Origin: Pacificibacter maritimus
GTDB taxonomy: Bacteria; Pseudomonadota; Alphaproteobacteria; Rhodobacterales; Rhodobacteraceae
Assembly (NCBI RefSeq): GCF_003814915.1
Contig: NZ_RKQK01000002.1
Location: 373,184-437,183 of the forward strand
Direction of reading: 5' to 3'
DNA length: 64,000 nt
A model generated the notes under the pieces. The model did not search any database, was not told the origin of the DNA, and saw only the letters and a program-made list of their open reading frames with translations. Shown piece after piece: positions 5,170 through 30,868 of the stretch (position 1 is its first letter; each line of letters opens with the position of its first letter). The position numbers and the translations under genes are program-made.

Positions 5170-5189
5170 TGGCGGAGACGAAGTCCGCC
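5170..5189. repeat. left attachment repeat overlapping a hairpin
   Basis: The 14-bp sequence at 5170-5183 is identical to the 3' end of tRNA-Ser at 30855-30868. The inverted repeat GGCGGA (5171-5176) / TCCGCC (5184-5189) surrounds the GACGAAG spacer, so the site can also fold. The 170 bp from here to the first island gene hold no gene and include a very AT-rich patch. Confidence 0.8.
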
Positions 5190-7678: not shown

Positions 7679-9751
7679 CTAGTTTTGCCGCACATAGGTC
7701 ACATAGAAATTCTTAAGCATACGATGTTCTTGGAGGCGGTCGCTGAGGCTGAAGCCGTCGCGTCGCACTGGCGCTTGGAAGATATCGAGACCGCGGTCAA
7801 GCACGATTTTCCAGCCAGTATCTGCGACGATATCTCTCGCATGAACTGTTCCTGATCCATCAAACGCCCAAGTGAAATCAACGCCTGATCCAGTGCATGC
7901 CTCAGTGATGCTTTCGAGAAGTTCGCGCTGTTTTTGGACGTTGCCATCGTCAGGTCCGGTGACAAGGTGGATGGCAACTTGGTCTTCAGGCGCTTTGCGC
8001 TGAATGACCATTTCAACAAATTCCATCATATTTTTGATCTGATAAAAGTAGCGGATATAGGGGTCCGTCACGATGATCCGCGACGCGCCGTCCAGATAAG
8101 GGCCGAAAAGCTTGTCATAGCTGACGCCTTTTCGGTTTTCCGAAAACACATGATGCCCTTCCTCTGCCAGAGGCTTGGCGGGCTTTAAGCCGCGTGTGGC
8201 ATCGGTAGGGGCTTGCTCAGCATCGATGACAACGTCAGCGCCATCGGTCGATTGATCCTGTTGCTTGGGGTCTGAAGCGGGTTTGAGGTAGTAAAACTGT
8301 GGAAACTCTTGCTCTTCTACGGTCTGCACACGCCGCTTTTCGCCATCTGAACCGGAATAGTAGAAGTCCACGTCCGGGTACGTTGCATCAATTCTAAATA
8401 GCTGATCCTTCACACGCTTTCGGCTTTCCATCGCAAGCTGCAAAAGTTCTTCGACATCCTCAGCCGTTTCGTCCCCGGCGGGGAAAATCACCTTCAGAAA
8501 ACCAGACATGGTCTTGTAGATGGCGTCGCGGTCACGGGTTGAGATCTTTTCGCTGACTTTGAAGTGCATGTCAGGACGGTTCGAGAAATCTTCTTGACGC
8601 AAATGGCGAAGGATCTCGGCAAGGTAGTCAACGATAAAACCATAGCCGCTGGTGAACATTTCGCCACGAATAACGTCGATCTCCCAACCCGGCAGATAGG
8701 CATGGAGGCGGTCTATGAAGGCGGAATCGTGGAATTGGGGGGGCAGCGCCTCGAACAGATCGCTGTTCTTAAGCATGTAGGGCACATTGTGGTCCGTGTT
8801 GCCCACAAATGCAAAACTCGCCTCGGCCCCCATAGGGTTAGTGCCGCGCGAGAACGTCTTATTTGCCATGTAGTTTTTCATGATATCGACAAGCGCTTTA
8901 TTAGCTGTCTTCTCGCGGCCCGCAAATTCATCGAACGCCACAACGTCCCAATACCCTACTAGCCCAATCCTGCCATTCGAGTTGTTCACAAACAGCTTAG
9001 GGATCGATACCTCACCGCCAGAGATCAGCTGTCCATGGGGTGAAAATTCCGAGAAGATGTGTGATTTGCCTGTGCCTTTTGGGCCAAGCTCGATGATGTT
9101 GTAGTTCCGCTCCACGAAAGGAATGAGCCGCATGAGCTGCAGGAGCTTGCTGCGCCGCCCAAAGGCGTCCGGGTTAAAGCCGATCGATTGCATCAGCAGG
9201 TCAATCCATTCGTCTGAGGTGAACTGTCCGCGTGCTTCTTTGTATCCCTCGTAGTCGACCTTGGCGATTTGGATTGGTTTGATCGTCTCGATCACCCAGG
9301 GCGATGTACGGGCCTCTTCTGAGAATTCGTATTGGACATCGGCGATGCACCAAACACTTGTGACGAGCAGTTTAGGGTGCGCTTTGACAGTGCCGCTGTC
9401 GACCGCAACCTTCTTGATCCCGAGGTTTTCAAAATTGGCCTCGTAGCTGTCCGTCTTTTCGTTCAACGATACGCTGATCTGGTCGATAACCTTGTATCGG
9501 CCTTTTTCCTTGATTGTGGACTGGATAAGCCCCGCTTCGCTGCGGTGGACGTAGTGCTTACGCAGGATTTCCTTGACCGTCTCGATGCCACTCTCGATCG
9601 ACGCCTCATCATCCGTCGCGCAATACTGTCCCAGAAGATACTCGAGAACATAGGTTGGAACGATCGCGTTGCCTTTGACTGCCTTCACCAGATCCTTGCG
9701 AACCACATAGCCCGCGAAATGCTCATTAATTTTGTCGTCGAGTGCGCTCAT
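7679..9751 (-). CDS. brxL: BREX Lon-like AAA+ protein BrxL
   Basis: A 690-residue BREX type 1 component. It has the family N-terminus (MSALDDKINEHFAGYVVRKD), a Walker A GPKGTGKS at residues 223-230 and the AFVGNTDHN segment of the AAA+ core. The C-terminal part is Lon-protease-like, ending near FYVTYVRQN. BrxL proteins form AAA+ rings that bind DNA and are needed for phage exclusion in type 1 systems. The ATG follows the pglZ stop by 9 nt, so the two are co-transcribed. Length is normal and no lesion is seen. Confidence 0.93.
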   Translation of the reverse strand: MSALDDKINEHFAGYVVRKDLVKAVKGNAIVPTYVLEYLLGQYCATDDEASIESGIETVKEILRKHYVHRSEAGLIQSTIKEKGRYKVIDQISVSLNEKTDSYEANFENLGIKKVAVDSGTVKAHPKLLVTSVWCIADVQYEFSEEARTSPWVIETIKPIQIAKVDYEGYKEARGQFTSDEWIDLLMQSIGFNPDAFGRRSKLLQLMRLIPFVERNYNIIELGPKGTGKSHIFSEFSPHGQLISGGEVSIPKLFVNNSNGRIGLVGYWDVVAFDEFAGREKTANKALVDIMKNYMANKTFSRGTNPMGAEASFAFVGNTDHNVPYMLKNSDLFEALPPQFHDSAFIDRLHAYLPGWEIDVIRGEMFTSGYGFIVDYLAEILRHLRQEDFSNRPDMHFKVSEKISTRDRDAIYKTMSGFLKVIFPAGDETAEDVEELLQLAMESRKRVKDQLFRIDATYPDVDFYYSGSDGEKRRVQTVEEQEFPQFYYLKPASDPKQQDQSTDGADVVIDAEQAPTDATRGLKPAKPLAEEGHHVFSENRKGVSYDKLFGPYLDGASRIIVTDPYIRYFYQIKNMMEFVEMVIQRKAPEDQVAIHLVTGPDDGNVQKQRELLESITEACTGSGVDFTWAFDGSGTVHARDIVADTGWKIVLDRGLDIFQAPVRRDGFSLSDRLQEHRMLKNFYVTYVRQN

Positions 9752-9760
9752 GTTCAGTCC

Positions 9761-12256
9761 TTAAAAGTCGAAATCTGTAGAAATGCCACGGCGCAGTTGA
9801 AAACGGTGGCTTGAGTAATCATCGTAATGGCTTGTCTTGCCGATCCGTTCTCGGAGTTTAAGGAAAACATCCTGATTATTGAAACGATCTGCTTCTCGTG
9901 CCAGCAGGAATTTAATAGGTAATTCCCGTTCGCGAGCGTTTTGCGAAGTGTAGTCAAAGGTAAGCTGATGTTCATCCGAAATGAGCGTTCCGTCCGACGT
10001 GTAAATTCCAGCCAAGACGTCGCGCTGCTGTTGTTTTTCGGAAACTGGCTGCGTCTGGTAGAGGGTAACCGCCGTCTGGCCAGAGGAAATCAGGCTTTTT
10101 CCGGCGATGATAATCTGAACTTCGACCTTCTCAACATCTGCTTCACGCCGTTTCCCGACCCTTATGACCGGGATGACAACTTCTTGAAGCGTCGCACCTC
10201 CGTGAACAAAACGGCTGCCAGCGCCCTTTTTGCGCAAACGGTTTATTGAATTGGGGATGAGAACCTCGATATCGCCTTTCAGCCCCAATTCATCCGGACG
10301 AAACTTCTTCATTCCCGCAGTCTCGTTTAAATTCCGGCCAAGCACAAACCGCCGGTTCGTATCGAGTATTTCACCACCCGTAGGATCTGCTACCGAAAAA
10401 TCCGTCTTGTCCAGAGCGCGGTGCTGGTAGATGAAACCGTGATCTGCTGTGATGAGAATGTTCGAGAAATTGGCCGTTGTTAGCTTGCGAACAAGCTTGG
10501 TCAGATCCTCGACTGCACCCTCTGTAGCTTCGGTCAAACGCTCTTCGGTGGAGAGTTTATCTCCAACGATGTCGATCCGGTTATGATAAAGATAGAGGAC
10601 ATCGTGGTCGCGGAAAATTTCCTTTCCGTCGTCGGCCTTCAACGCCATAAAATCATCTGCTTTCATGGCCTTCACACGATCATCAGTGCGCCCCATTCCC
10701 AGCACTTTTTCACGGTTGGCTGTCCCTTGCGTCGGCATTCCAAACGATGTCACGGTTGTGTCACCACAAAGCGTTAGGTCTTTGTTGGGCAACAGCGATG
10801 CCATACCCAGCTGGGTGTAGCTTGGCAAAGCGGAAATCATCGGCTTTATTTCTGCATCGAACCGGTTCAGCTTTCGGATTTCGCGTAAAGTTTCTTCAGC
10901 CACCTCGTAGCGCAACGCGTCTGAAATGATCACGACCACCTTCTGATCACGGCGACGAAATTCGGCGACTTGATCCATGTAGAAGTCAGTTTGCCGCGTG
11001 TACCCAGAGATTGCCCATTCATTCAGACCAGCAATCTGATCCTGCCAAGCGTCGTTGACGGCGGATAGGAAATTGGTCGTGTAGCGGTTTTCTACACTCT
11101 CAAACAGCGCGGCAAGCAGCGAGGCCTGACCGCTCTTCTGCATGTGAAAAATGAACTTGCGATACAGCTGATCGATCTTGAACCAATGCGAGACATACCG
11201 TTTCACCCCCTCGCTCGGAGAGGTCATGGTCAGGTTGGCTTCGGCCAGAGCCTGTTGAAACTCGGTTGCATAGCCAATTGCGCGGTAGATGTCCTCGTAG
11301 GTCGGATACCAATGGCTCTGCCGCCGCTCGCGTACGATTTTTAGCACATCCGCTGATGACACTGTTTGACTGGCCATCTCGGACACGAGGGACCGGATGA
11401 TCTGACGATCGATGGCTTCAAAATGATCAATTCCGCGCAAGGCTTTAATGTCGCGATCCTGCACATCGTCGGTAATTCGAAGGATGTCTTGGTACTTCCC
11501 ACTCAGCGTCTCAAAGGCTTTGGCACCCAAGCGATTGTTCTTCCAGCGACGAAAGACCAGAAGCGCCTCGCCATTCAGCTTACTGTCCTCGCCCAGCGTG
11601 CGGCGATAGCAAGACTGGAACAGCGTAATGGCAAAATCCATGAAGTCCGGCTCATCACTCGCATAGCCGTAGGCATTTTCGACTTGTTTCCAGAAAAGTG
11701 CAGTCAGCCCAGAACGCTCCATCAGGCGTATCGCGTCATCGCGGCCTTCGGCCAGCTCGCCCAGAAGCGCCTCGATCACTGTGTCCAGCGCACCTTCAGC
11801 ACCTGTGCAAACGGCCAGCATGCGGCGCAGCACGTCAGTCTTTGTGTCTGACGGCGTGATCAGCTGCTTTAGCGTCTCAATGCGGCCTTTTGATTTGTAG
11901 AACTCCAAATGGTCGCGCACCACGTCTTCAAATTGCACAGGCAGACCAAGCTCGGCCAACCAGATCGCGGCCTGGTCGGCCTTGAACACGCCGCAAGCGA
12001 AATGCAGATCGAGCAGCCAGTTGTCGGCCATCTCGGGTGCAGGGCCATCTTTGAACACAAGGAACTTCTGCTTTGGCTCTTGCCGCAGCATCCGGTATTT
12101 CAGACCAAATTCGTTGTTCACGATTTCGACCTTCTCGACATCCGGCAGATCCGCCGCCTCATACTCAGCCCGCATGTCGCGCGCCGCGTCGTACCAGAAC
12201 ACGATCCGGTGCTCGTCAAATAGCCGTTTTAGGCCAGCTTCAATCCGCTCACTCAT
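9761..12256 (-). CDS. pglZ: BREX-1 phosphatase-fold protein PglZ (type A)
   Basis: An 831-residue alkaline-phosphatase-superfamily protein. Metal-site motifs are visible: VVVIISDALRYE with Asp446, and ITADHGFIYQHR with Asp605-His606. PglZ is the signature protein of BREX. Its catalytic role is unresolved; it interacts with the methylation and exclusion machinery. Its ATG overlaps the end of the downstream-copy pglX (ATGAG...TAA, 4 bp). The C-terminus ends SHRFQLRRGISTDFDF, typical for type A. No truncation is seen. Confidence 0.93.
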   Translation of the reverse strand: MSERIEAGLKRLFDEHRIVFWYDAARDMRAEYEAADLPDVEKVEIVNNEFGLKYRMLRQEPKQKFLVFKDGPAPEMADNWLLDLHFACGVFKADQAAIWLAELGLPVQFEDVVRDHLEFYKSKGRIETLKQLITPSDTKTDVLRRMLAVCTGAEGALDTVIEALLGELAEGRDDAIRLMERSGLTALFWKQVENAYGYASDEPDFMDFAITLFQSCYRRTLGEDSKLNGEALLVFRRWKNNRLGAKAFETLSGKYQDILRITDDVQDRDIKALRGIDHFEAIDRQIIRSLVSEMASQTVSSADVLKIVRERRQSHWYPTYEDIYRAIGYATEFQQALAEANLTMTSPSEGVKRYVSHWFKIDQLYRKFIFHMQKSGQASLLAALFESVENRYTTNFLSAVNDAWQDQIAGLNEWAISGYTRQTDFYMDQVAEFRRRDQKVVVIISDALRYEVAEETLREIRKLNRFDAEIKPMISALPSYTQLGMASLLPNKDLTLCGDTTVTSFGMPTQGTANREKVLGMGRTDDRVKAMKADDFMALKADDGKEIFRDHDVLYLYHNRIDIVGDKLSTEERLTEATEGAVEDLTKLVRKLTTANFSNILITADHGFIYQHRALDKTDFSVADPTGGEILDTNRRFVLGRNLNETAGMKKFRPDELGLKGDIEVLIPNSINRLRKKGAGSRFVHGGATLQEVVIPVIRVGKRREADVEKVEVQIIIAGKSLISSGQTAVTLYQTQPVSEKQQQRDVLAGIYTSDGTLISDEHQLTFDYTSQNARERELPIKFLLAREADRFNNQDVFLKLRERIGKTSHYDDYSSHRFQLRRGISTDFDF

Positions 12257-15200
12257 TTACTTAACCCAACAATCTTCTTCAACGCAGCGTCGAATTTCGG
12301 ATAGTTCGCCTTCACCCCGTCATCGAGGTCGATCTCGATCTTCTTTTGTGCTAACGGGAAGATCACGTCGCGTTCCCATTCGTTCAGCTCGTCGATCTGC
12401 TTGGCGACCTTGGCCGCCTCCTTCAGCGCCTTGGTCTTCTGCCCTTGGGTCGCTGTCGGATCATAGGCCAGTTTCTCCTGCTTTGTACGCTCGCCCTCCA
12501 GCTTGGTGATGAACTCGCGCAGGTAGTCGTTGAGCAGCACCGACACTGTGTCGGCGCGGTAGCGGTGCATGTAGATCAGCGCGTTGAACGTGCCCTTGGG
12601 GCTGGAGAACATCCAGTAGATCGGGCGCTTTTTGTAGCGCTTCACGTGGTCGGCGTAGAAATCCTTGGTGAAATAATCTCTCAGGGACCTTGGTTTTCCG
12701 TTCTTGCCAAGCGTGTCCTCTATAAACTTCAGGTTCTCGCGGAAATGCGCCTCGCCGAAGGTCACGCGCAGGAACAGGTGGAAGCGTTCGGTGATGTCGT
12801 CGGGGAACCAGTTCTCGTCGAGCACGGGGATGACGTTGTCTTCGTCCGGCATGAAGGTCGGCTCGGGCACACCTTTTTCTTTAAGGGTGGCGAGGTAGTC
12901 GGCCAGCGTCTCGCCCTGATTGGCGAGGATCAGGCCGGGGGCGTCGAGGCTGTAACGCCCGAACATGCAGCCCACGGCGTAGGACAGGAACTCGGCCATG
13001 GTGTCGGCACGCAGGCGGGTCTCGTTCGCCTCGGCGTCGTTCTTGATGCCATAGCGATAGGCAGGGTTGCAGGTGAGGGTGATCTCGTTCAGCGGCACCT
13101 CGGGGGGCAGCTCGTCTTGCAGACCATAGGCGTCGATGAAGATGCGGTTGTTCTCTTCCTCAAGGCGCTGCATCTCGTCCGTTATGGACTGCCAATGGGC
13201 GCGGAGAGTGGCGTAGCTGACCTCCAGCGTTTCGCCACGATGATCGGGCGAGAGCAGCGGGAGCGTGGTGAAATCCCAGGAGGTTTCGTACGAGTCCCAG
13301 TCGGTTGTATGCGAGGCCACAAGTTGCCGGACGACGCGCTCAACACTTGCGTTCTGTTGGGTCGCTCGCGTGGGAGCCGGAATCTTGGCGAGATCTCCAA
13401 CCGTATTGGTGATCGTAGGATTTACAACGTTTTTGAACGTGCGCGCGACAGGCGAGTTGAAATAAGCCAATGAAAAGTAGGGGGCATCAGAGAAAAAACA
13501 TGGCGAGAGGTCTCCCGGAAGCAGTCCGCCCTCATGGAGGCGATATGCCTCTGGACCGCTTGAAATTCGCCCCCAGCAAACGGCCTCTTTGAAGTACAGG
13601 TCTTCGCTGGGGATAATGGCCTTGCCGGTAGCCTTAATGTCGCGTCCATCCGATTGCCAGTTCACTACTAGATCAATACCACCCGCCCACTTCCGATAGT
13701 CGCCACCATTATTGAATCGAAACCATTTTTCGGAACGTTGAAGAGCCTCGACGCGGTTACGACTAACAAAGTCTGTTTGCTCAGAGCCAACCTCTGACCA
13801 CTGCCTGATGAAAAGGTCCTTGTTTCCAGTTTGAAGTCCTCGGCGCGTGCTCCCAACTGAAGAGAGCATATCCTCAAGGAATGCATCTGCGACATCCTGA
13901 GATATCCAGTATGCGATAGGGTAGCCCGGGATCCGTTCGAACTCGGTGGTGCTTGCTTTGTAAACTTCGTCATCCGCTCCTGAGGCGGCTCTTTTCAAAG
14001 CCTCCAGTTTTTCATTTTCGTTCCGTCCATCTATCAAGCGAACAAAGTACCCAGCACTGGAAGCCTTCCGAGACTTTTCGAAAACAAAAGCAGTTGTCGA
14101 CACGACTGACCCGCCGATTGTATCGAATGCTCTCTCTCCAAGGTGTGCCATCGAAGTAAGATGAGACGATGCAAGCAACCATCCACGCATTTTCTCAAAG
14201 GACGAGAGAAACATCCAAGACTGCATGTTGATCATGGCCATGAACCCGCCTTGGACATTCAGCATGAGCGAGCGAACCATAAACATTGCGAAGAGATCAG
14301 ACTTTGAATCTGAGTAGTTAGCTTCGGTCCACGTCATAAGAGTGGGGTTCATGCCACCTCGACCCATATACGGCGGGTTGGCCACCACCACGTGATACTT
14401 CGGCGTCAGCGCTTCGGCCATGCGTAGCACGCCGATGACACGCTCCTGCACTTCTTTCAGCAGCAGGTCGCCGCCGAAATCCCGCGCCTCGACTATCCGC
14501 AGCGTCTCGGCGGGGTCGTGCAGCTTCGGCACGATCAGCGAGCCGAAGTTCTTGGCCTGCTCGAACTGCCTCAGCGTCTCGCGCAGCTCATCCGTGAACA
14601 GATCCTTGCCCACCACGGCGGCCACGTCCTGCATCTCGGCAGGCGTAAAGCTCACGTTCTGCAACACGCAAATGTCGGGCTTTGCCTCCATCCGCAAGAA
14701 CCGCCGCCGCCCCAGCTTGGCCGCCGCCTTCATCGCCAGTGCAAAAGCCGCCAGCGCCCCCGCGCGGTCGTCGATCTCCACTCCGGTCAAATTGTGCGTC
14801 AGGATCAGCGCGGGGATCTCGGTCGCGTCATAACCCTCTTCCTCGTAGATGGCGTAGAGCAGCTCAAAGGCATAGGTCAGCATGTGCCCCGAGCCTGCGG
14901 CGGGATCGCAGATGCGGATTTCTTCGGGGCGGGTGATGCGCAGAAAGTCCGTCTCGGGCTCTTCGGGCGCGATGTAATAGTCCATCTTGGCCGCCAGCCC
15001 GCTTGCTGGATTGTTCAGCAGCCAGAGCCGCCCCAGCGAGTTCTCCACCAGATAGCGGACGATCCAATGCGGGGTGAAGAGCTGCGTCGCGGCGGGGATG
15101 TTCTCGGCCTCGATCTTAACGTTCTTCTTGAGGTCCGCAAATACTTGGTCCTTCCTCTCGGAGATGTAGAATTGGTAGAGCCAGCCAACGATCTCTACAT

Positions 15201-15777
15201 CCTCACAAGCATTTGGTGTCATGGCTTCGCGCAGATACGCTAGGATCGAGGCTGGCGATAGTAGGTCTTCCGGCAACAACAATTCGGTGTAGTCGTCGAT
15301 CCTCTCAAACAAGAAAGGCATAGATTTCTGCCAGTAATTGCAAACCGCAACGAGCAGCAATCGATAGGCCTCTGACTGTGAATCGGGGCTCGGGACACGC
15401 CCATCCAAGAGAGCAAAGACCCTTTTGCGAGTTTTTTCAGGCACAATATCGGCACTTATGTTTCCGGCCTTTGCCTCAACCAGAATTTCAGGCTGAAACT
15501 GGCCGGGCACCGGAGACACAACCCGGATAGCGTTTAGATTATTCAAATCCATATAGCGCAACGCCGATAGGCGGTTGAACCAAATATAAGCGACCCTTTC
15601 GATGACTTCGCCTTTGCTATGTTTATCAATAGCTGCATCCAGCTTCTTCATCGCATTTGGGTGTTCGCGCCTTTCCGAAGCGCCCGCCATTAAAACTAAG
15701 CCAAGCCTGGCGTCGACCTGTTCTACAAGGGCGCGCCGTGCAAATTGAGAGAATTTTTTAAGCTTCGAGATGTCCAA
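12253..15777 (-). CDS. pglX: BREX-1 adenine DNA methyltransferase PglX, second copy
   Basis: 1,174 residues from a TTG start at 15777. The frame is open to 15819, but the TTG follows GAGGAG by 7 nt and aligns with the ATG of the other pglX (both lead into LKKF). SAM motif I is CDPAAGSGH (about 304-312 from 15819) and the catalytic motif is NPPY (about 480-483, same numbering). PglX makes N6-methyladenine on host DNA and sets BREX specificity. The core is about 95% identical to the other copy and the C-terminal 300 residues are identical. The part after NPPY (about 485-870), the presumed target-recognition region, differs strongly. The start overlaps the nuclease-like gene by 20 nt. Confidence 0.93.
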   Translation of the reverse strand: MDISKLKKFSQFARRALVEQVDARLGLVLMAGASERREHPNAMKKLDAAIDKHSKGEVIERVAYIWFNRLSALRYMDLNNLNAIRVVSPVPGQFQPEILVEAKAGNISADIVPEKTRKRVFALLDGRVPSPDSQSEAYRLLLVAVCNYWQKSMPFLFERIDDYTELLLPEDLLSPASILAYLREAMTPNACEDVEIVGWLYQFYISERKDQVFADLKKNVKIEAENIPAATQLFTPHWIVRYLVENSLGRLWLLNNPASGLAAKMDYYIAPEEPETDFLRITRPEEIRICDPAAGSGHMLTYAFELLYAIYEEEGYDATEIPALILTHNLTGVEIDDRAGALAAFALAMKAAAKLGRRRFLRMEAKPDICVLQNVSFTPAEMQDVAAVVGKDLFTDELRETLRQFEQAKNFGSLIVPKLHDPAETLRIVEARDFGGDLLLKEVQERVIGVLRMAEALTPKYHVVVANPPYMGRGGMNPTLMTWTEANYSDSKSDLFAMFMVRSLMLNVQGGFMAMINMQSWMFLSSFEKMRGWLLASSHLTSMAHLGERAFDTIGGSVVSTTAFVFEKSRKASSAGYFVRLIDGRNENEKLEALKRAASGADDEVYKASTTEFERIPGYPIAYWISQDVADAFLEDMLSSVGSTRRGLQTGNKDLFIRQWSEVGSEQTDFVSRNRVEALQRSEKWFRFNNGGDYRKWAGGIDLVVNWQSDGRDIKATGKAIIPSEDLYFKEAVCWGRISSGPEAYRLHEGGLLPGDLSPCFFSDAPYFSLAYFNSPVARTFKNVVNPTITNTVGDLAKIPAPTRATQQNASVERVVRQLVASHTTDWDSYETSWDFTTLPLLSPDHRGETLEVSYATLRAHWQSITDEMQRLEEENNRIFIDAYGLQDELPPEVPLNEITLTCNPAYRYGIKNDAEANETRLRADTMAEFLSYAVGCMFGRYSLDAPGLILANQGETLADYLATLKEKGVPEPTFMPDEDNVIPVLDENWFPDDITERFHLFLRVTFGEAHFRENLKFIEDTLGKNGKPRSLRDYFTKDFYADHVKRYKKRPIYWMFSSPKGTFNALIYMHRYRADTVSVLLNDYLREFITKLEGERTKQEKLAYDPTATQGQKTKALKEAAKVAKQIDELNEWERDVIFPLAQKKIEIDLDDGVKANYPKFDAALKKIVGLSK
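12302..13182 (-). repeat. 881-bp perfect direct repeat, copy A (3' end of second pglX)
   Basis: Compared line by line with 17557-18437, the two are identical over 881 bp with a constant offset of 5,255 bp. Identity stops sharply at both ends; the final 15 codons differ. It encodes the PglX C-terminal domain. The perfect match at synonymous sites indicates recent duplication or ongoing gene conversion. Confidence 0.97.
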
Positions 15778-16276
15778 CAGCAGGCTCCTCACTAATTCGT
15801 CTAACCGATTGAACCCCAAACTGACGTTTCCATTGTTCTAGATTTAGGATTACGCAACTTGTGGCGCAGTCGCGCGTCCAATCCAAATGCCTGATCGGTA
15901 TCGATTTCTTCAATTGATCCTGTTTATTCAGCAATAATGCTACGTCTAAGCTTTGCATCGACAAAAGAACTACGTAGACGATGGAACGATCAGTTATTCC
16001 CTGCGCAGTTCTGAAAAAAACTGTGTCACGGAACTTTCCAGCCAAGTTCTGCACAAGTACCCCAGAACCTAGTTTATTCAAGAAACCATCGATGTTCTGG
16101 GGATTAGGAATATCTAAATCCTTAATTTCTACGAATATGTCACGATCGTCGTATTCAGCAATGAAGTCGACGCGTTTAATGGTGTTGGGACTATGATATT
16201 GGGCATCGTCAAAATTGATGACGGCTGTTGCCCCTGCAAAGCTGATCTCCAAATCGAGTTCTCGCACCGTTATCAT
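15758..16276 (-). CDS. small PD-(D/E)XK nuclease-like protein
   Basis: 172 residues, no named family recognised. The segment RVDFIAEYDDRDIFVEIKD gives Asp37 followed by Glu50-Ile-Lys52. That is the D...ExK arrangement of PD-(D/E)XK nucleases, with the hydrophobic strands expected around it. The start ATG overlaps the stop of the upstream ATPase (ATGA). Its own 3' end overlaps the TTG of the second pglX by 20 nt. Its translation is thus coupled to both neighbours. An ATPase plus a small nuclease is a common two-gene defence arrangement. The nuclease call is motif-based inference; a non-catalytic partner is also possible. Confidence 0.6.
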   Translation of the reverse strand: MITVRELDLEISFAGATAVINFDDAQYHSPNTIKRVDFIAEYDDRDIFVEIKDLDIPNPQNIDGFLNKLGSGVLVQNLAGKFRDTVFFRTAQGITDRSIVYVVLLSMQSLDVALLLNKQDQLKKSIPIRHLDWTRDCATSCVILNLEQWKRQFGVQSVRRISEEPAVGHLEA

Positions 16277-17445
16277 AGTGACACACCTTCCAGAGAGCGT
16301 TCGATTTCGGCGTCGTAAAGTGCACCAAACGTTTTCGCAATTCCAGTTTCCGCTAGTTGGTCGTATTCATCGGTAGAGTGAACGGATATTGAACCAGTTT
16401 CTTCGTCTCGGGCCAGAACATGGAAGCGAATGTGATCCTCATGTCCGGTATTTTTGAGTAAATCGAACCACTTAAGAAGGACGTAGTCGTGGGTCGCTAC
16501 AACGACTTGCTGTCCGTTGCGTGACAGTTCCAAAAGAATTTGAACAACTTTCTTCATCAACTTTGGATTAAGGTTTGCTTCTGGTTCATCCCAAAGCAGC
16601 ACTCCTGTCTTCCCAGGACTAACTGCACCGTTGCAAAGCAGCCGATGTAGGACACCTATCTTTCTGTAACCCTCAGCTGTCATGGCGCTCGAGAAAGATT
16701 GACCTTCTTTCGAGACGAAACGAATGACAGTGGAATCCTGGTATACCTTTGCGGCCTGCGACCGTGTCCTGTCTGGAGCAGCTTTTTCCTCATAATGACC
16801 AGGTTCAAAACGGAATGCGCCTTCCTCTGTCCAGCGGTATCTTCCACCTACTAGATCTACCAATTCACGGATCACAGAAGACAACCTAGGATCCTCAGAA
16901 ACACGAGATGCTTCATCTTCGAATCCGGGAGAAACTAAAAGCTCGGCGAGGTCGGTATAACCATCATCGAAAATTGCCTCTACAGTTTCACGATCGTAGT
17001 TTGAATTCCGCATACCGCGAACAAGCGACAGAACTTCCTTAGCAGGAATGAAAACCGGTTTTGTGGCGTGAGAAGATGTTGTAGCCGTCTCACTGATTTT
17101 GAAGTACTTTGAACGGTTGTTGAATGAAATCTCGACAGTTGAACCGTCTCCATTTACCAGACTAAGTCTTGTTTCAGAATCAGCGCCTTTTGAATGTAAG
17201 GCTCCTAGGCGAACGTCTTCAGGGGTGAATATCCGTACGAATTTTTTTGATGCAGAAGCTTCTTCTTCAGATTTATTTTGCCCTGCTATTGAGGGCTGGC
17301 CCACCAAACCCAGACCGTAGATCGCTTTCAAGATGTGAGTTTTGCCAGTACCGTTAGAGCCAATCATTACATTCAATTTTGGTGACAGCTTTAATTGCAG
17401 ATTTTCAAATGCTGTGAGGTTTTCAATTCGTAGTTCAGAAATCAT
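16273..17445 (-). CDS. AAA/ABC-type ATPase (AAA_21-like) inside the BREX operon
   Basis: 390 residues. The N-terminus MISELRIENLTAFENLQL is typical of RecF/SMC-like ATPases. Walker A is GSNGTGKT (29-36) and Walker B is GVLLWDEPEANLNP with Asp286-Glu287. It is followed by the His switch VVVATHDYVLLKW. No long coiled coil is present, unlike SMC or Rad50. The family is used in several defence systems (AriA of PARIS, OLD-type, Septu-like). The partner here is not the DUF4435 protein of PARIS. It lies 65 nt after the first pglX and overlaps the nuclease-like gene. Its role as an accessory defence sensor is inferred from position. Confidence 0.82.
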   Translation of the reverse strand: MISELRIENLTAFENLQLKLSPKLNVMIGSNGTGKTHILKAIYGLGLVGQPSIAGQNKSEEEASASKKFVRIFTPEDVRLGALHSKGADSETRLSLVNGDGSTVEISFNNRSKYFKISETATTSSHATKPVFIPAKEVLSLVRGMRNSNYDRETVEAIFDDGYTDLAELLVSPGFEDEASRVSEDPRLSSVIRELVDLVGGRYRWTEEGAFRFEPGHYEEKAAPDRTRSQAAKVYQDSTVIRFVSKEGQSFSSAMTAEGYRKIGVLHRLLCNGAVSPGKTGVLLWDEPEANLNPKLMKKVVQILLELSRNGQQVVVATHDYVLLKWFDLLKNTGHEDHIRFHVLARDEETGSISVHSTDEYDQLAETGIAKTFGALYDAEIERSLEGVSL

Positions 17446-17510
17446 TCAAAATAACCCTTTGTCGTAAATTTTCAGCAATGACGTTGATTGGCAAATTTCT
17501 CGATTCGACA

Positions 17511-20500
17511 TCAGCTAAGCCCCACGATCTTTTTCAGCGCGGTGCCGAATAGCGGGTAGTTCGCCTTCACCCCGTCATCGAGGTCGATCTCGATCTTCTT
17601 TTGTGCTAACGGGAAGATCACGTCGCGTTCCCATTCGTTCAGCTCGTCGATCTGCTTGGCGACCTTGGCCGCCTCCTTCAGCGCCTTGGTCTTCTGCCCT
17701 TGGGTCGCTGTCGGATCATAGGCCAGTTTCTCCTGCTTTGTACGCTCGCCCTCCAGCTTGGTGATGAACTCGCGCAGGTAGTCGTTGAGCAGCACCGACA
17801 CTGTGTCGGCGCGGTAGCGGTGCATGTAGATCAGCGCGTTGAACGTGCCCTTGGGGCTGGAGAACATCCAGTAGATCGGGCGCTTTTTGTAGCGCTTCAC
17901 GTGGTCGGCGTAGAAATCCTTGGTGAAATAATCTCTCAGGGACCTTGGTTTTCCGTTCTTGCCAAGCGTGTCCTCTATAAACTTCAGGTTCTCGCGGAAA
18001 TGCGCCTCGCCGAAGGTCACGCGCAGGAACAGGTGGAAGCGTTCGGTGATGTCGTCGGGGAACCAGTTCTCGTCGAGCACGGGGATGACGTTGTCTTCGT
18101 CCGGCATGAAGGTCGGCTCGGGCACACCTTTTTCTTTAAGGGTGGCGAGGTAGTCGGCCAGCGTCTCGCCCTGATTGGCGAGGATCAGGCCGGGGGCGTC
18201 GAGGCTGTAACGCCCGAACATGCAGCCCACGGCGTAGGACAGGAACTCGGCCATGGTGTCGGCACGCAGGCGGGTCTCGTTCGCCTCGGCGTCGTTCTTG
18301 ATGCCATAGCGATAGGCAGGGTTGCAGGTGAGGGTGATCTCGTTCAGCGGCACCTCGGGGGGCAGCTCGTCTTGCAGACCATAGGCGTCGATGAAGATGC
18401 GGTTGTTCTCTTCCTCAAGGCGCTGCATCTCGTCCGTCATGCCCTGCCAATGGTCGCGCAGGCGGGTATAGGTGGCCTCCAGCGTGTCGGCCCGGTGATC
18501 GGGCGAGAGCAGCGGGAGCGTGGTGAAATCCCAGGAGGTTTCGTAGGCGTCCCAATCGGCACGGGCGATTTCTACCAATCTGTCGACCAGATGTGTTACC
18601 GATACTTCTTCATAATCTTCGAATACTGGCAGCAGCTTCATACTTCCTGGGCCAAAATCTTTTGCCGCGACGACGCGCAGCAGCGGGGGCATTACTTTGG
18701 AATGCAGTAGGCCCAAGGAAACATCGAGAGCGCGTGGACTGTCGCTGAAGAACATAGAATTTTTCTGATCAAAAATATGACCATAGGTTACGCGGCGGAC
18801 TGACAATTTGCTTGCAATAGTGTTGTAGGCAAGTCCGTTACGAAAGTAATACTGCTCGTTTCTAACCGTGGAGCTTTTGTGCGATTTGATCTCGGCACCA
18901 TCCGAGTGCCAATCGAGAATGAACTCATGATTTCCGAACCACTTTCGGTAGTCGCTGCCCTTAACATAAGGAACCCATTTCCCGGACCAACTTGTTTTGG
19001 TTTCCGGTTCAATATCGAAATCGATCGAAACACGACTGACTTCTCCCCAGCTTCGAATGAAGCGTGGGTTGTCACCGGTCTGAAGACCTGTGAAGGCTTC
19101 CGCATATTCCTTGAGGGGAGTACCGTCGGCATAAGCGCTACGAGTGTGGTCGGATACGAAATAGGCAACTACGTTTCGCGGAAGACGTGTAAAGTCAGAC
19201 GCTCGTGCCAGATGCTCACCATGTCTTTCGCGAAGCATGGCGGCCTTCTCATCAGAGTTCTGCCCCTCGGTAAGATCGAAGAACTGGGCTGCTCGATCGG
19301 GATTCCCGCCGCGTTGAGACACAAAGCCCGCTACCTGAACTACCTCTCCTTTGATTTCGTCAAATGCGCGAGGGCCAAGGTGTGCCAACTGTTGGAAGGG
19401 CGAGCCAGAGATCAGACGTGCACGCATTTCCGTATAGTCGTCACCAAATAACCAGCTATCCATAGCGATCATTGCGAACAGCCCGTGCCTGCGGCAAAGC
19501 TTACTTAAGCGATCAATGAACGCGGCATAGAGGTCTGAAAAACAATCGGGGAACTTTTCGACGAGAAAAGACTGAAGCTGGCCGTTAAGATCACCTTTCT
19601 TCTTATACGGCGGATTGGCCACCACCACGTGATACTCTGGCGACAGCGCCTCGGCCATGCGCAGCACGGCGATGACACGCTCCTGCACCTCCTTCAACAG
19701 CAGATCACCGCCAAAATCCCGCGCCTCGACCACCCGCAGCGTCTCGGCCGGATCGCGCAGCTTCGGCACGATCAGCGAGCCAAAGTTCTTGGCCTGCTCG
19801 AATTGCCGGATGGTCGCCCAAAGCGGACCATGGAAGGCAATCGCTTCGTTCAACTGCCGCGCCACGTCCTCAAGTCTGGCATAGACCTCGGGCGCGTTGG
19901 TGGCCTCTTCCACCCGGGCCACCAGCGCGTCGAGATCCATGCGGTATGTCGTGTCATTGCCGTGCTTGGCGTAGGCCTTGCCAATCCCGATCAATCTCTC
20001 GGAGATGTTGGGCGAGTTCGCACTCTTCTTGAACGCCGTCTCAAGCTGTTTGCGTTCTTTGGCCGATTTGTCTGATGCCGCGATGGCCAAGAGTTCGGAC
20101 CGAACGTCTTGGGTTTGGTTCAGGATGAAGGGGGTCTGAGCCGCCTCTTCAAACAAGCCAAGCTCCCAATCGAGCGCGACACCGAACACGTGCATCGCGT
20201 TGTCAACGATGTCCTCGAAGCCCTTTGCCTCAGCGTGCTTCAAATAGCGGCTGACGGAGTGCCAGAATTCATCGAGGATGAGAGGCGTTTTCGATAGGCC
20301 ATTAGCCACCCGATCGACGTTTAGGTCGTAGCCAAGGTCGGCAACAAAGTCGTTGAACTCGCTTATCTGGAAGCGATGTTCCTGCAACACGCAGATGTCG
20401 GGTTTTGCCTCCATCCGCAGGAACCGCCGCCGCCCCAGCTTGCCCGCCGCCTTCATCGCCAGTGCAAAAGCCGCCAGCGCCCCCGCGCGGTCGTCAATCT

Positions 20501-21485
20501 CCACCCCCGTCAGGTTATGCGTCAGGATAAGCGCGGGGATCTCGGTCGCGTCGTATCCCTCTTCCTCGTAGATGGCGTAGAGCAGGTCAAAGGCATATGT
20601 CAGCATGTGCCCCGACCCGGCGGCGGGATCGCAGATGCGGATCTCTTCGGGGCGGGAGATGCGCAGAAAGTCCGTCTCGGGCTCTTCTGGCGCGATGTAA
20701 TAGTCCATCTTGGCCGCCAGCCCGCTGTGCGGATTGTTCAGCAGCCAGAGCCGCCCCAGCGAGTTCTCCACGAGGTAGCGGACGATCCAGTGCGGCGTGA
20801 ACAGCTGCGTCGCGGCGGGGATGTTCTCGGCCGTGATCTTTTGGTTCTTCTTGAGGCCCGCGAAGACCTGATCCTTCTTCTCAGAGATGTAGAACTGGTA
20901 GAGCCAGCCGATGATCTCGACGTCCTGACAGGCGTCCTCGGTCATGACCTTGCGCAGTTCGGCGAGGATGGAGGTCTGCGAGAGCAGATCCTCGGGCATC
21001 AACAGTTCGGTGTAGTCATCGATCTGCTCAAACAGGAAGGGCATCGGCCCGTGCCACTGATTGCAGGTATGGACGAGCAGTTGACGGTAAGCTTCGGCCT
21101 GCGGATCATTGGAGGGCGTGCGCCCGTTCAGCAGGGCTTCGATGCTGGTTGGGGCTTTGTCAGGCAGGTTGCCCGCCATTGCCTCTGACAAGATCTCGGG
21201 CCGTGTTGCGCCGTCAGCCGGAGAGACCACCCGCACCTGCGTGTAACCGTTGGCATCCATAAAGCGCAGGGCGGTGAAGCGGTTGAACCACGTATAGGCG
21301 ACCTGTTCGATGACCTGCGTTTTACTGGTGCGTTTGATCGCGTTGTCGAGGTCTTTGGTCGCCTTGGGGGCCTCGCGCCGCGCCGCGCTGTTTTCGGCCA
21401 GAACGACATCGAGTTTGGAGGTCACCTGATCTATCAGCAGGTTACGGGCCGCTTGGGCGAATTTCTTGAGCGCGTTGGTATCCAT
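17511..21485 (-). CDS. pglX: BREX-1 adenine DNA methyltransferase PglX, first copy, with an insertion
   Basis: 1,324 residues. Motif I CDPAAGSGH lies at about 285-293 and NPPYKKKG at 624-627. Relative to the second copy, about 160 extra residues lie between DICVLQ and RQFEQAKNFG, from EHRFQISEFNDF onward. The N-terminal 240 residues are roughly 55% identical to the other copy, the SAM core about 95%, and the post-NPPY region is different. The last 300 residues are identical. It probably methylates a different site or a variant site. The start ATG overlaps the brxC stop codon by one base (TAATG). Confidence 0.93.
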   Translation of the reverse strand: MDTNALKKFAQAARNLLIDQVTSKLDVVLAENSAARREAPKATKDLDNAIKRTSKTQVIEQVAYTWFNRFTALRFMDANGYTQVRVVSPADGATRPEILSEAMAGNLPDKAPTSIEALLNGRTPSNDPQAEAYRQLLVHTCNQWHGPMPFLFEQIDDYTELLMPEDLLSQTSILAELRKVMTEDACQDVEIIGWLYQFYISEKKDQVFAGLKKNQKITAENIPAATQLFTPHWIVRYLVENSLGRLWLLNNPHSGLAAKMDYYIAPEEPETDFLRISRPEEIRICDPAAGSGHMLTYAFDLLYAIYEEEGYDATEIPALILTHNLTGVEIDDRAGALAAFALAMKAAGKLGRRRFLRMEAKPDICVLQEHRFQISEFNDFVADLGYDLNVDRVANGLSKTPLILDEFWHSVSRYLKHAEAKGFEDIVDNAMHVFGVALDWELGLFEEAAQTPFILNQTQDVRSELLAIAASDKSAKERKQLETAFKKSANSPNISERLIGIGKAYAKHGNDTTYRMDLDALVARVEEATNAPEVYARLEDVARQLNEAIAFHGPLWATIRQFEQAKNFGSLIVPKLRDPAETLRVVEARDFGGDLLLKEVQERVIAVLRMAEALSPEYHVVVANPPYKKKGDLNGQLQSFLVEKFPDCFSDLYAAFIDRLSKLCRRHGLFAMIAMDSWLFGDDYTEMRARLISGSPFQQLAHLGPRAFDEIKGEVVQVAGFVSQRGGNPDRAAQFFDLTEGQNSDEKAAMLRERHGEHLARASDFTRLPRNVVAYFVSDHTRSAYADGTPLKEYAEAFTGLQTGDNPRFIRSWGEVSRVSIDFDIEPETKTSWSGKWVPYVKGSDYRKWFGNHEFILDWHSDGAEIKSHKSSTVRNEQYYFRNGLAYNTIASKLSVRRVTYGHIFDQKNSMFFSDSPRALDVSLGLLHSKVMPPLLRVVAAKDFGPGSMKLLPVFEDYEEVSVTHLVDRLVEIARADWDAYETSWDFTTLPLLSPDHRADTLEATYTRLRDHWQGMTDEMQRLEEENNRIFIDAYGLQDELPPEVPLNEITLTCNPAYRYGIKNDAEANETRLRADTMAEFLSYAVGCMFGRYSLDAPGLILANQGETLADYLATLKEKGVPEPTFMPDEDNVIPVLDENWFPDDITERFHLFLRVTFGEAHFRENLKFIEDTLGKNGKPRSLRDYFTKDFYADHVKRYKKRPIYWMFSSPKGTFNALIYMHRYRADTVSVLLNDYLREFITKLEGERTKQEKLAYDPTATQGQKTKALKEAAKVAKQIDELNEWERDVIFPLAQKKIEIDLDDGVKANYPLFGTALKKIVGLS
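17557..18437 (-). repeat. 881-bp perfect direct repeat, copy B (3' end of first pglX)
   Basis: Partner of 12302-13182, base-for-base identical in the comparison made by eye, at an offset of 5,255 bp. Homologous recombination between the copies would delete the intervening second methylase specificity region plus the ATPase and nuclease-like genes, leaving one intact chimeric pglX. Confidence 0.97.
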
Positions 21486-24400
21486 TACACAATAACTTTC
21501 TTGCCCGCGCGGATTTCGGCCAGCAGGGTCTTTTTCATTTCTTCGAGGTACTGATCGACGTCGTCTTCATCGGTGAGCAGCGTTTTCGGGGCTTTGATTT
21601 TGAGCGTCGATGCAAGGACTGTTGTTGGGGCCTGCGGTGCAGGAGCGGGCCGATCGCTGGGCTGCGGATCGGGTGCAGGTGCAGGGCGCGCGAGCCGGTC
21701 GAGTTCGTTGACGGCGTCAGCCAGCAGGTTCGTGCGCGCGCCATTGGCCCGGTCACGCAGCACGGGGATCAGCGTGACCGTGTCGAGCCCGGCTTTGTGG
21801 CTATCGATGCGCGCGTTGATGCGTGCTTGTTTATCAGCATCGAGAGCTTGGAAGTCCGGCATCTGCGCGATCTTGGCAGCGACTTCTTGCACCTCTGCGA
21901 TGACGGCTTTGCGCTCTTCCAGCACCTTAAGCTCGACCTTATTCTTCAGATCGAAGAGGTCGGATTTCAGGCTCTGGATCGACGATCCCTTGAAGCAGTT
22001 GGGATCCTCCAACGCCGCACGAAGTTTTTGACCGGCTTCAGGATCCACATAGTCGATGTTGGAAGACTGATTAGCGAGCATATCGCGCGCATCGTCATAG
22101 ATGCCTTTTTGTGCGCCGCCCATAAAGGATTTCACTTTGTCGAGGATATCTTCCTTCGCGTTCAGAAGATCATCCTCACGTTTGGGGGCTTCGGATATAT
22201 ACCAGTTTGCCGGTTTGCCCTTCATACCACGCAGCAGTTGGTGGAATGGCTCAAGCCCGGTCAGGAACGCGTAGAGGTGCGACAAACGCATAAGGCCGTC
22301 TACCTCCACCTCCAACGCCTCGATGCTAGTGATCCATTCAGCGCCCAGGCTGCGAGCGTCCGTCCCCGACGAAGGATGAGAGAAAAGTTCCTGATAAAGT
22401 TCTTTGGCGCTACGAATTTCAGCGGCTGTGAATTCCAATTGCGGAGTAAGCAGGATGTTTGGCAGCGCATGGCTGTTGTTGAGCGCTTTTGCGAGATCCA
22501 GCCCTTCCTTGACTGCACTATCGACACGCGCCTCGACCTTGCCTTTGGCGACCAAACTACCTGCAAGACACAAAGCAGCGGTCATGGGCCAGCCGTAGGG
22601 TTTTGAAGTGAACCTGTCGGCTAGGTATTTGACGGAGACTTTGACGCCATTGCGTGCTTGCGCATTGATGAAGCTCAGAACGTCCTGTTCTGCCTCGTGG
22701 ATGCCGGTACCATCGGATCCAAACAGACCGCTTTCAGATTGCACTGCTTTGTTGATGTCTGCCTCAGTGTAGCTGACGCCACGCAACATCGGCAGGTTGG
22801 TGTAAACCTTGTCGACCAGAGACTGAAAAGCTTTGCTGATGCGCTCTTGAGGGTCTTCACCTCCGATCTCAAGCTCGTCACCTCTGACGAACAGCCGAGC
22901 CTCACCCATTAGCTTCCGCAGCCGCATTTCGAGGTCTTTGGCACGGCGGCCATTTTGCTCGCCTTTTTCTGCGACGATACGGTCACGGCCTGGTTGCGGA
23001 GAGCCGCTCCGAGATTGACGAATGAACTTATCGGTCTGTTTGAAGAGGATCAGGTCGCGGACGAAGTTCGCATCCGGCTTCATGGATACCGCTAGCTCCT
23101 CGCGCGACATGGTTTTCATGCGCACTGCATCGGGGCTTTCAGCTTCATCGCTGAAGGGAGAAATGACGTTGATTGCAAGTTCGTATTCGCGACCGACCGC
23201 ATGATCATCCAGCCTCCTCGTGAAGGCGTATTCGCTGTTGGTCGCCAAATGCTTGATCTTGCGATGCCGAAGGATTGTATCGAAAGCGATTGTCTCGAGT
23301 TCCTTCGATAGTTCCGAGGGGTCAATGTCGAGTGCCTTAATTTCCGCTTCGACGTCTTTTTCTTCATTGGTCAGGAATTCATAGACCTCACCATTCCGCT
23401 GGATGTAGGTTTCCCTCTCAAGGCGACTTAAGGCTTCCTCGATCTGACGACGTTGCATTGTCTGATCAGCCTCGAATTCCGACAAAAGCAGAATGCCGAT
23501 GTTGCGCACAGACGGTTTGAAGCCTTTGACGTATTTGACCAGGAACAAAGACTTAAGAACTCGGACTGCAAATGGATCATCCAGATTCTTTTCGGCGATC
23601 TGGATGCTTTGTTGTACCGATGATTTGAGCGCGGTCCGGATCCCTTCAAACATGAGATCGAAAGTCGCCAGACCTCCCACTTCTCGGTCTTTCAGTTTTT
23701 TCGAGACCTCTTGGAAAACGCCTAGCATTGAGCGTTCGCCAACAGAGCTATGCTTACCCTCAAATGCGTTGTGCTCCGACAGCGAAGTGATCGCCATCTG
23801 AAAGAGATCGTATTGATACGGTGGGAACGGATAGCTTGCGATGAACTGATCACGGTCACGATAGTTCTTGAGCTTCATCGACCCGTCGGTGAAATCGAAC
23901 AGTGTCTTGAGGTTGTTTTCTTCGCGATCGTGGAGGTTGCCGAGCGTTACTTGGGCCTCAGGAGTCTTGGCCAAAAGGCGACGCTGAATCACTTCCGCTA
24001 CATCTGCCGAGTTCAGGGGCATACGGTTGCTGAAACGGGCTTGAATTTTGGAGAAGTCGTTCTCTTGCTGTTGGGTCATGTCACCGATCACCGAGGCCAT
24101 TTCTTGCTGAGCGGTGACGATGATCCAGGCCTGCCCTTTGCATTTTGTGTTCAGGCTTTCCGCAATGGTTTGCAGATTGGTCATGAGCTTTATGTTGTCC
24201 GCAATATACTGGCCGACTTCGTCTACGAAGAAGTTTAGTCGGAACCCTTTGGGTTGCTCATCAATCCACACTTTAACGGTCTCTGCGAAATCTTCGATCG
24301 AGACCCGAGTGTCTTTGCGGTATTGGCTTAGGATGTCCTTGGCGTCGTTTGCGTCACCACCTGTTGCAGCCGCAAACGCAGTCGCGATGTTCTTGGACTC

Positions 24401-25003
24401 GAGTACCGCTTGTTCACGCCCACGACCCCAATCCTTGCCTGATGCGTTTAGGAAGGCGGCCTTGAACGCGTCGAACTGGCCGCGACCTGCGAGATCGCGT
24501 TCGAATTGGGCGATGTGGGGCTGCTTGCCATAATACCCACAGGTCTCGTCAAAAACCTTCTGGAACACCGAGAGAAGAGCGTCGACATCCGTCTTCGAGA
24601 TAACGTCTGCTTTTTGGTCGATGTTGAACAAGATCGACTTTGAGGGGATCGAGACCGCCTTGTTCAAAGCACCGCCCAACATCGGGTTGTCTTTGACTTC
24701 GGGCTTTTCCGCAAAGATGTCGTGGGCTTTGACGCCATCCACACTTCGGTTTTCGAGCACCAAAGCGAGCATTTTCAAGAGGTGAGATTTACCAGAGCCA
24801 AAGAACCCAGATATCCACACCCCGTTCGATGTGTCGTAGTTATTGTAAGCGTCAAGGAACTGTTCAAGGCGCTGCCCGATTTCACCGGTTACAACGTACT
24901 CATCCAGTTCAACGCGAAGGCTCGCCTCGTCGTCGGCCTTGATAACGCCATCAATGGCACGGTCGACGGGTTTTTCAAAAATGTCTTTTAGCAACTGGAC
25001 CAT
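21485..25003 (-). CDS. brxC: BREX P-loop ATPase BrxC
   Basis: A 1,172-residue BREX ATPase. The N-terminus MVQLLKDIFEKPVDRAIDGV is family-typical. Walker A is GFFGSGKS at residues 66-73 in the sentence-like motif GVWISGFFGSGKSHLLK. A Walker-B-like NFFVDEVGQYIADN follows near residue 258. A Pro-rich linker (residues about 1095-1125) precedes the last helix. BrxC is a large ATPase essential for BREX exclusion and methylation. It starts 4 nt after brxB and its stop overlaps the pglX ATG. Confidence 0.94.
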   Translation of the reverse strand: MVQLLKDIFEKPVDRAIDGVIKADDEASLRVELDEYVVTGEIGQRLEQFLDAYNNYDTSNGVWISGFFGSGKSHLLKMLALVLENRSVDGVKAHDIFAEKPEVKDNPMLGGALNKAVSIPSKSILFNIDQKADVISKTDVDALLSVFQKVFDETCGYYGKQPHIAQFERDLAGRGQFDAFKAAFLNASGKDWGRGREQAVLESKNIATAFAAATGGDANDAKDILSQYRKDTRVSIEDFAETVKVWIDEQPKGFRLNFFVDEVGQYIADNIKLMTNLQTIAESLNTKCKGQAWIIVTAQQEMASVIGDMTQQQENDFSKIQARFSNRMPLNSADVAEVIQRRLLAKTPEAQVTLGNLHDREENNLKTLFDFTDGSMKLKNYRDRDQFIASYPFPPYQYDLFQMAITSLSEHNAFEGKHSSVGERSMLGVFQEVSKKLKDREVGGLATFDLMFEGIRTALKSSVQQSIQIAEKNLDDPFAVRVLKSLFLVKYVKGFKPSVRNIGILLLSEFEADQTMQRRQIEEALSRLERETYIQRNGEVYEFLTNEEKDVEAEIKALDIDPSELSKELETIAFDTILRHRKIKHLATNSEYAFTRRLDDHAVGREYELAINVISPFSDEAESPDAVRMKTMSREELAVSMKPDANFVRDLILFKQTDKFIRQSRSGSPQPGRDRIVAEKGEQNGRRAKDLEMRLRKLMGEARLFVRGDELEIGGEDPQERISKAFQSLVDKVYTNLPMLRGVSYTEADINKAVQSESGLFGSDGTGIHEAEQDVLSFINAQARNGVKVSVKYLADRFTSKPYGWPMTAALCLAGSLVAKGKVEARVDSAVKEGLDLAKALNNSHALPNILLTPQLEFTAAEIRSAKELYQELFSHPSSGTDARSLGAEWITSIEALEVEVDGLMRLSHLYAFLTGLEPFHQLLRGMKGKPANWYISEAPKREDDLLNAKEDILDKVKSFMGGAQKGIYDDARDMLANQSSNIDYVDPEAGQKLRAALEDPNCFKGSSIQSLKSDLFDLKNKVELKVLEERKAVIAEVQEVAAKIAQMPDFQALDADKQARINARIDSHKAGLDTVTLIPVLRDRANGARTNLLADAVNELDRLARPAPAPDPQPSDRPAPAPQAPTTVLASTLKIKAPKTLLTDEDDVDQYLEEMKKTLLAEIRAGKKVIV

Positions 25004-25607: not shown

Positions 25608-25608
25608 A

Positions 25609-30854: not shown

Positions 30855-30868
30855 TGGCGGAGACGAAG
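30855..30868. repeat. right attachment repeat in the tRNA-Ser 3' end
   Basis: TGGCGGAGACGAAG, identical to 5170-5183. It is the 3' terminus of tRNA-Ser, including the CCA complement, the usual crossover site for P4-type integrases. Confidence 0.85.

Follow-up and report, generated by a model that had tools for sequence, protein, structure and literature searches.

What does a BREX operon gain from a second pglX gene? In the literature drawn on here, as far as its accessible text goes, each BREX system has one PglX and recognizes one motif. The locus considered here, which lies in a window of 64,000 nucleotides from Pacificibacter maritimus (the whole stretch of DNA analysed, to which all positions refer), carries two.

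According to the accessible text of the structural studies on PglX (BrxX), this protein carries target recognition and changes in its target-recognition region (TRD) alter the motif; methylation and defence need the assembly of BrxB, BrxC, PglX and PglZ (PMC11341690, PMC11842806). Lacticaseibacillus paracasei Zhang has an additional methyltransferase gene, yet methylation is reported to be lost only on inactivation of pglX (PMC10164179). BREX clusters with duplicated or phase-variable pglX are also described in print, where these features are linked to changes in the recognition motif (PMC11842806). In the literature searched, which consisted mostly of papers readable without subscription, two situations were not found: (i) one operon with two full-length PglX that differ in N-terminal type; and (ii) a link between the PglX N-terminal domain and HEC-02. 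The earlier paper cited for duplicated or phase-variable pglX is probably that of Goldfarb (2015). The duplication of pglX as such is already published, and the more interesting part of the present locus is the pair of haplotypes with HEC-02 between them.

The operon runs on the minus strand in the order brxA-brxB-brxC-pglX-L-HEC02A-HEC02B-pglX-S-pglZ-brxL, as deduced from the list of open reading frames (ORFs), PADLOC and Pfam. The type 1 BREX gene set (brxA, brxB, brxC, pglX, pglZ and brxL) is complete in this one cluster (PADLOC, Pfam), whose features are, in the direction of transcription:

25609 to 26223, minus strand: brxA (PADLOC, Pfam).
25008 to 25670, minus strand: brxB (PADLOC, Pfam).
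21485 to 25003, minus strand: brxC (PADLOC, Pfam).
17511 to 21485, minus strand: pglX-L (PglX haplotype alpha), 1324 aa, first copy, directly after brxC; NCBIfam NF033452 BREX_1_MTaseX, 1352 bits.
17446 to 17510, minus strand: spacer of 65 bp from pglX-L to HEC-02A, with no recognisable brxC or pglZ remnant.
16273 to 17445, minus strand: HEC-02A, OLD/ABC-type ATPase, 390 aa; PADLOC HEC-02A 6e-104, Pfam AAA_21 4e-19.
15758 to 16276, minus strand: HEC-02B, 172 aa, probable PD-(D/E)XK nuclease; PADLOC HEC-02B 2e-60.
12253 to 15819, minus strand: pglX-S (PglX haplotype beta), second copy, ORF from TTG 15819; NF033452, 1406 bits.
9761 to 12256, minus strand: pglZ (PADLOC, Pfam).
7679 to 9751, minus strand: brxL with a C-terminal phospholipase-D-like domain (MIT_C) (PADLOC, Pfam).

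Transcription from the minus strand puts pglX-L ahead of pglX-S, a point missed by the first reading of the sequence, as were the HEC-02A and HEC-02B genes located between the two pglX copies and the likely start of PglX-S, which alignment with relatives places at TTG 15777 and not at 15819. The 65-bp spacer was considered as a brxC/pglZ scar of tandem formation and rejected, since in five comparisons between 402 and 1878 of 2000 shuffles scored at least as high. A promoter and terminator scan of the operon yielded counts at or below those of shuffled sequence, and an internal promoter is not claimed.

Single-pglX type 1 BREX systems, such as those of E. coli HS and Salmonella D23580, have the same brxA-brxB-brxC-pglX-pglZ-brxL content and order, and the same PglX plan of N-terminal domain, methyltransferase, TRD and conserved C-terminal part, according to the accessible text of the published accounts (PMC11341690, PMC11842806). 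The window differs from them in having two complete PglX with very different TRDs, an insert of ~162 residues in one of them, and HEC-02A/B in between.

Regarding the surroundings of the operon, brxL is adjoined at 5360-7414 by a gene for a protein with a GmrSD N-terminal domain and a Schlafen AlbA_2 domain, a relative of which lies next to brxL in another genome (G193, locus L022; 92% identity over the 378 residues compared). A phage-type integrase (29497-30705) adjoins a tRNA-Ser gene, and 14 bp of the tRNA 3' end (30855-30868) are repeated at 5170-5183. The BREX operon probably sits on a genomic island of ~25.7 kb (window 5170-30868); its empty site was not found in the single same-genus genome checked.

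Both pglX genes are intact type 1 BREX PglX genes with their catalytic motifs present. The two NF033452 scores lie far above the cut-off of that model (500 bits), and the motifs DPAAGSGH and NPPY occur at residues 286 and 624 of PglX-L and at residues 305 and 481 of PglX-S (numbering from TTG 15819). The modules in which the two proteins can be compared are the following:

18591 to 19619, minus strand: TRD of PglX-L, about residues 623-965 (approximate limits, from homology to solved BrxX/PglX).
13345 to 14382, minus strand: TRD of PglX-S, about residues 480-825 (approximate limits).
19824 to 20309, minus strand: PglX-L insert of ~162 residues (393-554) in the methyltransferase domain, from GSG to NPPY; absent from PglX-S.
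17557 to 18437, minus strand: 881-bp exact repeat in pglX-L, residues 1017-1310; offset 5255.
12302 to 13182, minus strand: 881-bp exact repeat in pglX-S, residues 880-1173; maximal exact match.

The insert, which the first reading of the sequence had passed over, is seen in two other named loci; among 34 PglX compared by alignment and GSG-to-NPPY distances, only PglX-L of the window, G038_L and the Aurantiacibacter protein have it. It matches no Pfam family, its sole hit (E 0.017) being under the cut-off of the family concerned.

Identity between the two proteins differs from module to module: 58% in the N-terminal domain, 94% in the SAM core, 88% in the core just upstream of NPPY, 32% in the TRD, 84% at PglX-L residues 985-1040 and 100% at residues 1041-1310. 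Of the fourfold-degenerate sites, 30 of 50 differ in the N-terminal domain, 17 of 86 in core 1, 5 of 33 in core 2, 33 of 53 in the TRD, 2 of 17 in codons 985-1030 and 0 of 127 in codons 1031-1310 (PglX-L numbering). A preliminary description of this DNA had reported an 881-bp identity at an offset of 5,255 bp, copies that differ after NPPY, and identities of about 95% in the SAM core and about 55% at the N-terminus; its coordinates are right to the base, and the two estimates are a fair rendering of the values given above. Salmonella T802 and S838, residues that bear on one base of the motif, correspond in alignments read by hand to the pair K/D (PglX-L) and the pair L/T (PglX-S), respectively, which hints weakly at different motifs.

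These observations point to a type 1 BREX operon that has probably, though by no means certainly, acquired a dual specificity, i.e. one machine with two PglX readers. The course of events would be as follows: (i) an alpha haplotype, of the kind found behind brxC, and a beta haplotype, of the kind found behind HEC-02A/B, were joined in one operon; (ii) the two PglX would take turns in the complex with the one set of BrxB, BrxC and PglZ; (iii) the cell would thereby methylate and guard two different DNA motifs; and (iv) a later recombination between the copies would have replaced the 881-bp C-terminal stretch, while the TRDs stayed different. From the sequence we infer the tandem origin, the expression of both PglX, the two motifs, the shared complex and the role of HEC-02. 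That a BREX operon of this kind could attend to two sites, as had been proposed for it, is plausible because both PglX are intact and have very different TRDs within one operon. If both PglX work, one set of BREX partners serves two readers, a situation that would help to tell how the BrxB-BrxC-PglX-PglZ assembly picks its reader and that would suggest that BREX can gain targets by adding pglX genes. There is a parallel in type I restriction, in which several specificity subunits can serve one motor and TRDs vary between conserved parts. Both cases have one machine with several target readers; since a BREX reader and its methyltransferase form one protein, a second reader entails a whole second PglX.

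Against dual specificity stands the rarity of the arrangement, which could be transient. Searches with PglX-S matched 9 of 295 genomes of the family, 2 of 385 of the class and 8 of 397 of another order of the class, and a search with the BREX_1_MTaseX family matched 12 of 398 genomes of the phylum; near matches were not found in E. coli genomes. Two full-length pglX genes occur in 2 of the 24 distinct matching genomes (the window's own and G038), a count for which just two candidate places were scored per matching genome, so that a remote second copy could escape it. A second copy is rare on plasmids too (242 records matching PglX-L account for 244 places), where the best-covered hit holds 45% of the query. 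Most of the relatives checked have a single pglX between brxC and pglZ.

The second copy could accordingly belong to a transitional state, in which a second haplotype has been inserted beside the resident one during a replacement of specificity and one of the copies is leaving via the 881-bp repeat. Such a direct repeat eases deletion, and the in silico joining of its flanks gives an open frame of 1325 residues, so that an open pglX would be left behind. Both genes of the window are, however, intact and motif-complete, and G038 and two operons from viral-collection contigs likewise have two copies, which have diverged there, so that such a state can persist. We regard a transitional state as unlikely, although it keeps a real share of the probability. 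The G038 operon, from another genus, has the same gene set with the haplotypes in reversed order (brxA-brxB-brxC-HEC02A-HEC02B-pglX(beta)-pglX(alpha)-pglZ-brxL). Its HEC-02B is just 27% identical to that of the window, which points to separate events of union. The viral-collection contigs L071 and L073 (61 and 88 kb; L072 is identical to L073) hold BREX with HEC-02 and, behind it, tandem full-length pglX genes with ends alike and TRDs 35% and 29% identical, respectively. Since both copies of each pair fall in the beta clade, these pairs would be separate duplications within a lineage and not mergers of alpha and beta. The pattern of alike ends and different TRDs recurs in four operons. Published duplicated or phase-variable pglX clusters resemble the window in having more than one pglX, as far as the accessible text describes them (PMC11842806); in the window the copies are direct and full length, belong to two N-terminal haplotypes and have an effector pair between them.

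The two haplotypes differ in the N-terminal domain, alpha genes as a rule standing directly behind brxC and beta genes behind HEC-02A/B. In this domain, PglX-L shares 89% identity with the second G038 copy and with the single pglX of G193, against 58% with PglX-S. Module trees were built for 20, 26, 29 and then 34 PglX sequences. In the N-terminal tree, beta emerges as a clade (support 100 with 20 and 26 sequences, 99 with 29) of those sequences that have HEC-02B immediately upstream; sequences that follow brxC make up the other group, alpha, which also includes the second G038 copy, located behind a pglX. Rooted on Azotobacter, alpha is not a clade but a grade from which beta arises. When the set is limited to the 25 sequences from alphaproteobacteria (6 linked to HEC-02), one change of the HEC-02 label suffices on the N-terminal tree, a number as low being reached by 0 of 2000 shuffles; the core 1, core 2, TRD and C-terminal trees need 4, 5, 4 and 5 changes (163, 784, 144 and 732 of 2000 shuffles). 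With all 34 sequences, the label needs 3 changes on the N-terminal tree (0/2000) and 7, 8, 8 and 7 on the others, in the same order (178, 618, 689 and 180/2000). With 29 sequences, a partial tracking of HEC-02 is also seen in the trees of core 1 and of the C-terminal region, at 5 changes each (11 and 15/2000). A strict coupling of the beta N-terminal domain to HEC-02 holds in the 25 alphaproteobacterial sequences and was rejected for the whole set, where beta members with no HEC-02 directly upstream are those of Arthrobacter, a second Methylomonas (just 1.3 kb upstream covered) and the second viral copies. Linkage between the pglX 5' end and the gene next to it upstream would be enough to produce much of this pattern, with no need of a functional bond.

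The pair in the window therefore looks like two haplotypes, alpha and beta, brought together, since a plain duplication would not explain why the two N-terminal domains belong to separate groups, each including relatives with the same upstream neighbour. A tandem duplication of one pglX, whose N-terminal domain, core and TRD were afterwards overwritten by imported alleles, would account for the identical C-terminal tract. It is opposed by the 15 of 45 positions that differ just past the tract, at the 3' ends of the genes (12257-12301), and the single-copy relatives of each N-terminal domain with the same upstream neighbour (brxC or HEC-02B), and it is considered distinctly improbable.

Beyond the other border of the identical tract, 19 of 122 positions differ at 13183-13304 and 67 of 96 at 13305-13400. 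Within the tract region, 0 of 127 fourfold sites differ, versus 22 of 119 in the SAM core (~18%; Fisher 4e-8, pooled). A recent exchange between the two pglX copies is well supported by this contrast. It would have taken place after the copies came together, because the tract is flanked by divergence on both sides and the cores differ at ~18% of fourfold sites, and it was most likely internal, because the nearest of 10 other loci compared is just 85% identical over the 881 bp. It is unlikely that a known relative donated this stretch to both copies. Like tracts could also have been left by one crossover at the origin of the tandem, conversion and crossover being indistinguishable here; the earlier suggestion of gene conversion around a changing target-recognition region is upheld in the sense of conversion or an equivalent exchange, in a tract bounded by divergence. 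The exchanged tract indicates which part of PglX stays common to the copies and which can vary.

A perfect direct repeat of this length, in frame, also brings to mind a recombinational switch, in which cells alternate the two PglX specificities through the repeat, all the more so as pglX phase variation is mentioned in the accessible text of several papers (PMC11842806, PMC11341690, PMC9122589). The consequences of recombination speak against it. A crossover in the tract would indeed delete 5,255 bp, as the preliminary description had foreseen, but the expected chimera is nearly PglX-L itself (3 substitutions and one extra C-terminal residue), with the TRD of PglX-L unchanged; the deletion also takes away HEC-02A/B together with PglX-S from the N-terminal domain through the TRD. 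Keeping the specificity of PglX-S would need a crossover within the core, where the longest exact run shared by the two copies is 52 bp. Either crossover is a one-way deletion and not a reversible switch of specificity, so the proposal that the operon switches between two sites falls, while that of two sites remains plausible. Phase variation of pglX by inversion is defined by an inverted pglX copy or by inverted repeats. Here both copies lie on the same strand as direct copies, no inverted repeat was found in window 8000-30000 (minimum length 25, seed 15), and the sole recombinase identified in the subset of window ORFs scanned is the integrase beside the tRNA. A switch is consequently very improbable.

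The least credible explanation, in which assembly or polishing made or perfected the repeat, draws on an assembly in 8 contigs, a repeat longer than short reads and the capacity of polishing to blur small differences, and is opposed by the unique arms on both sides of the repeat, the coherent operon order, the alternative join across the repeat (which would presumably give a deleted operon plus a circle) and the comparable two-pglX operon of G038.

HEC-02A and HEC-02B are adjacent and match both components of the PADLOC candidate system HEC-02, at the E values listed above. HEC-02A matches AriA models weakly (3e-21). HEC-02B is matched in PADLOC at E 0.001 only by HEC-02B models, with no match to AriB, and by nothing in Pfam; an identity with PARIS (AriA ATPase plus TOPRIM AriB) was rejected on the missing AriB match. 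HEC-02B has a conserved VD...EIKD stretch whose D37, E50 and K52 are invariant in 6 sequences; in an alignment of 8, E50 and K52 remain invariant and D37 does not (L068 has E). A structure model from the single sequence was useless (mean pLDDT 37), and one from the 8 sequences (pLDDT 75) had as its best, weak fold match the small subunit of R.BspD6I (E 7e-3, TM 0.34); a profile search of solved structures returned nothing significant (best E 0.07). On the conserved residues and the model, HEC-02B is a probable PD-(D/E)XK nuclease.

OLD-ABC ATPases paired with nucleases, including those of the PD-(D/E)XK type, are described in the accessible text on such dyads as backup effectors inside BREX loci (PMC12839542). 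The HEC-02A/B pair is most likely an embedded backup effector of this kind, with an ATPase sensor and a nuclease. It shares with BREX-embedded dyads such as PARIS an OLD-type ATPase with a small protein, probably a nuclease, behind it (PMC12839542). It differs from them in lying upstream of pglX, in tracking the N-terminal domain of PglX in alphaproteobacteria and in the lack of an AriB match. The presence of HEC-02 was also considered as a predictor of two pglX genes, a relationship that is not established: two copies occur in 2 of 4 HEC-02-positive versus 0 of 10 negative genomes (Fisher 0.066), out of 17 genomes from which G165, G288 and G937, with a cut or broken locus, were excluded, the 7 further genomes of the phylum search being outside the count.

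The N-terminal domain of PglX is described, in the same accessible text, as a helical bundle of unknown function (PMC12839542), and its link to the upstream effector pair gives it a testable role. A bolder and rather doubtful idea is that this domain is a docking module that decides effector wiring, so that beta would dock on, or be watched by, HEC-02 and alpha would not. If this were true, the two-PglX operon would read two motifs with two outcomes, ordinary BREX for one and a response backed by a second nuclease for the other.

Other arrangements of pglX were encountered among the relatives. In Rhodovulum sp. P5 plasmid sequence (L032, 11974-17390), the pglX annotation consists of two short genes next to a Tn3-family transposase; in that stretch brxC is not annotated and only the pglX 3' part matches PglX-L. 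A 598-aa pglX N half is found in L097 (G1194), whose contig ends 1.2 kb downstream, with the C half absent. Finally, in L095:5514-12225 (G1302) and L096:7944-14971 (G1160), pglX is split at the hinge between methyltransferase and TRD into two ORFs, with N halves of 649 and 631 aa and C halves of 577 and 599 aa, respectively. Between the halves lie an RT_UG5-nitrilase reverse-transcriptase defence gene in one case, and Schlafen-like and AriA/AriB-like (PARIS) genes in the other. Such a split pglX resembles separate M and S subunits.
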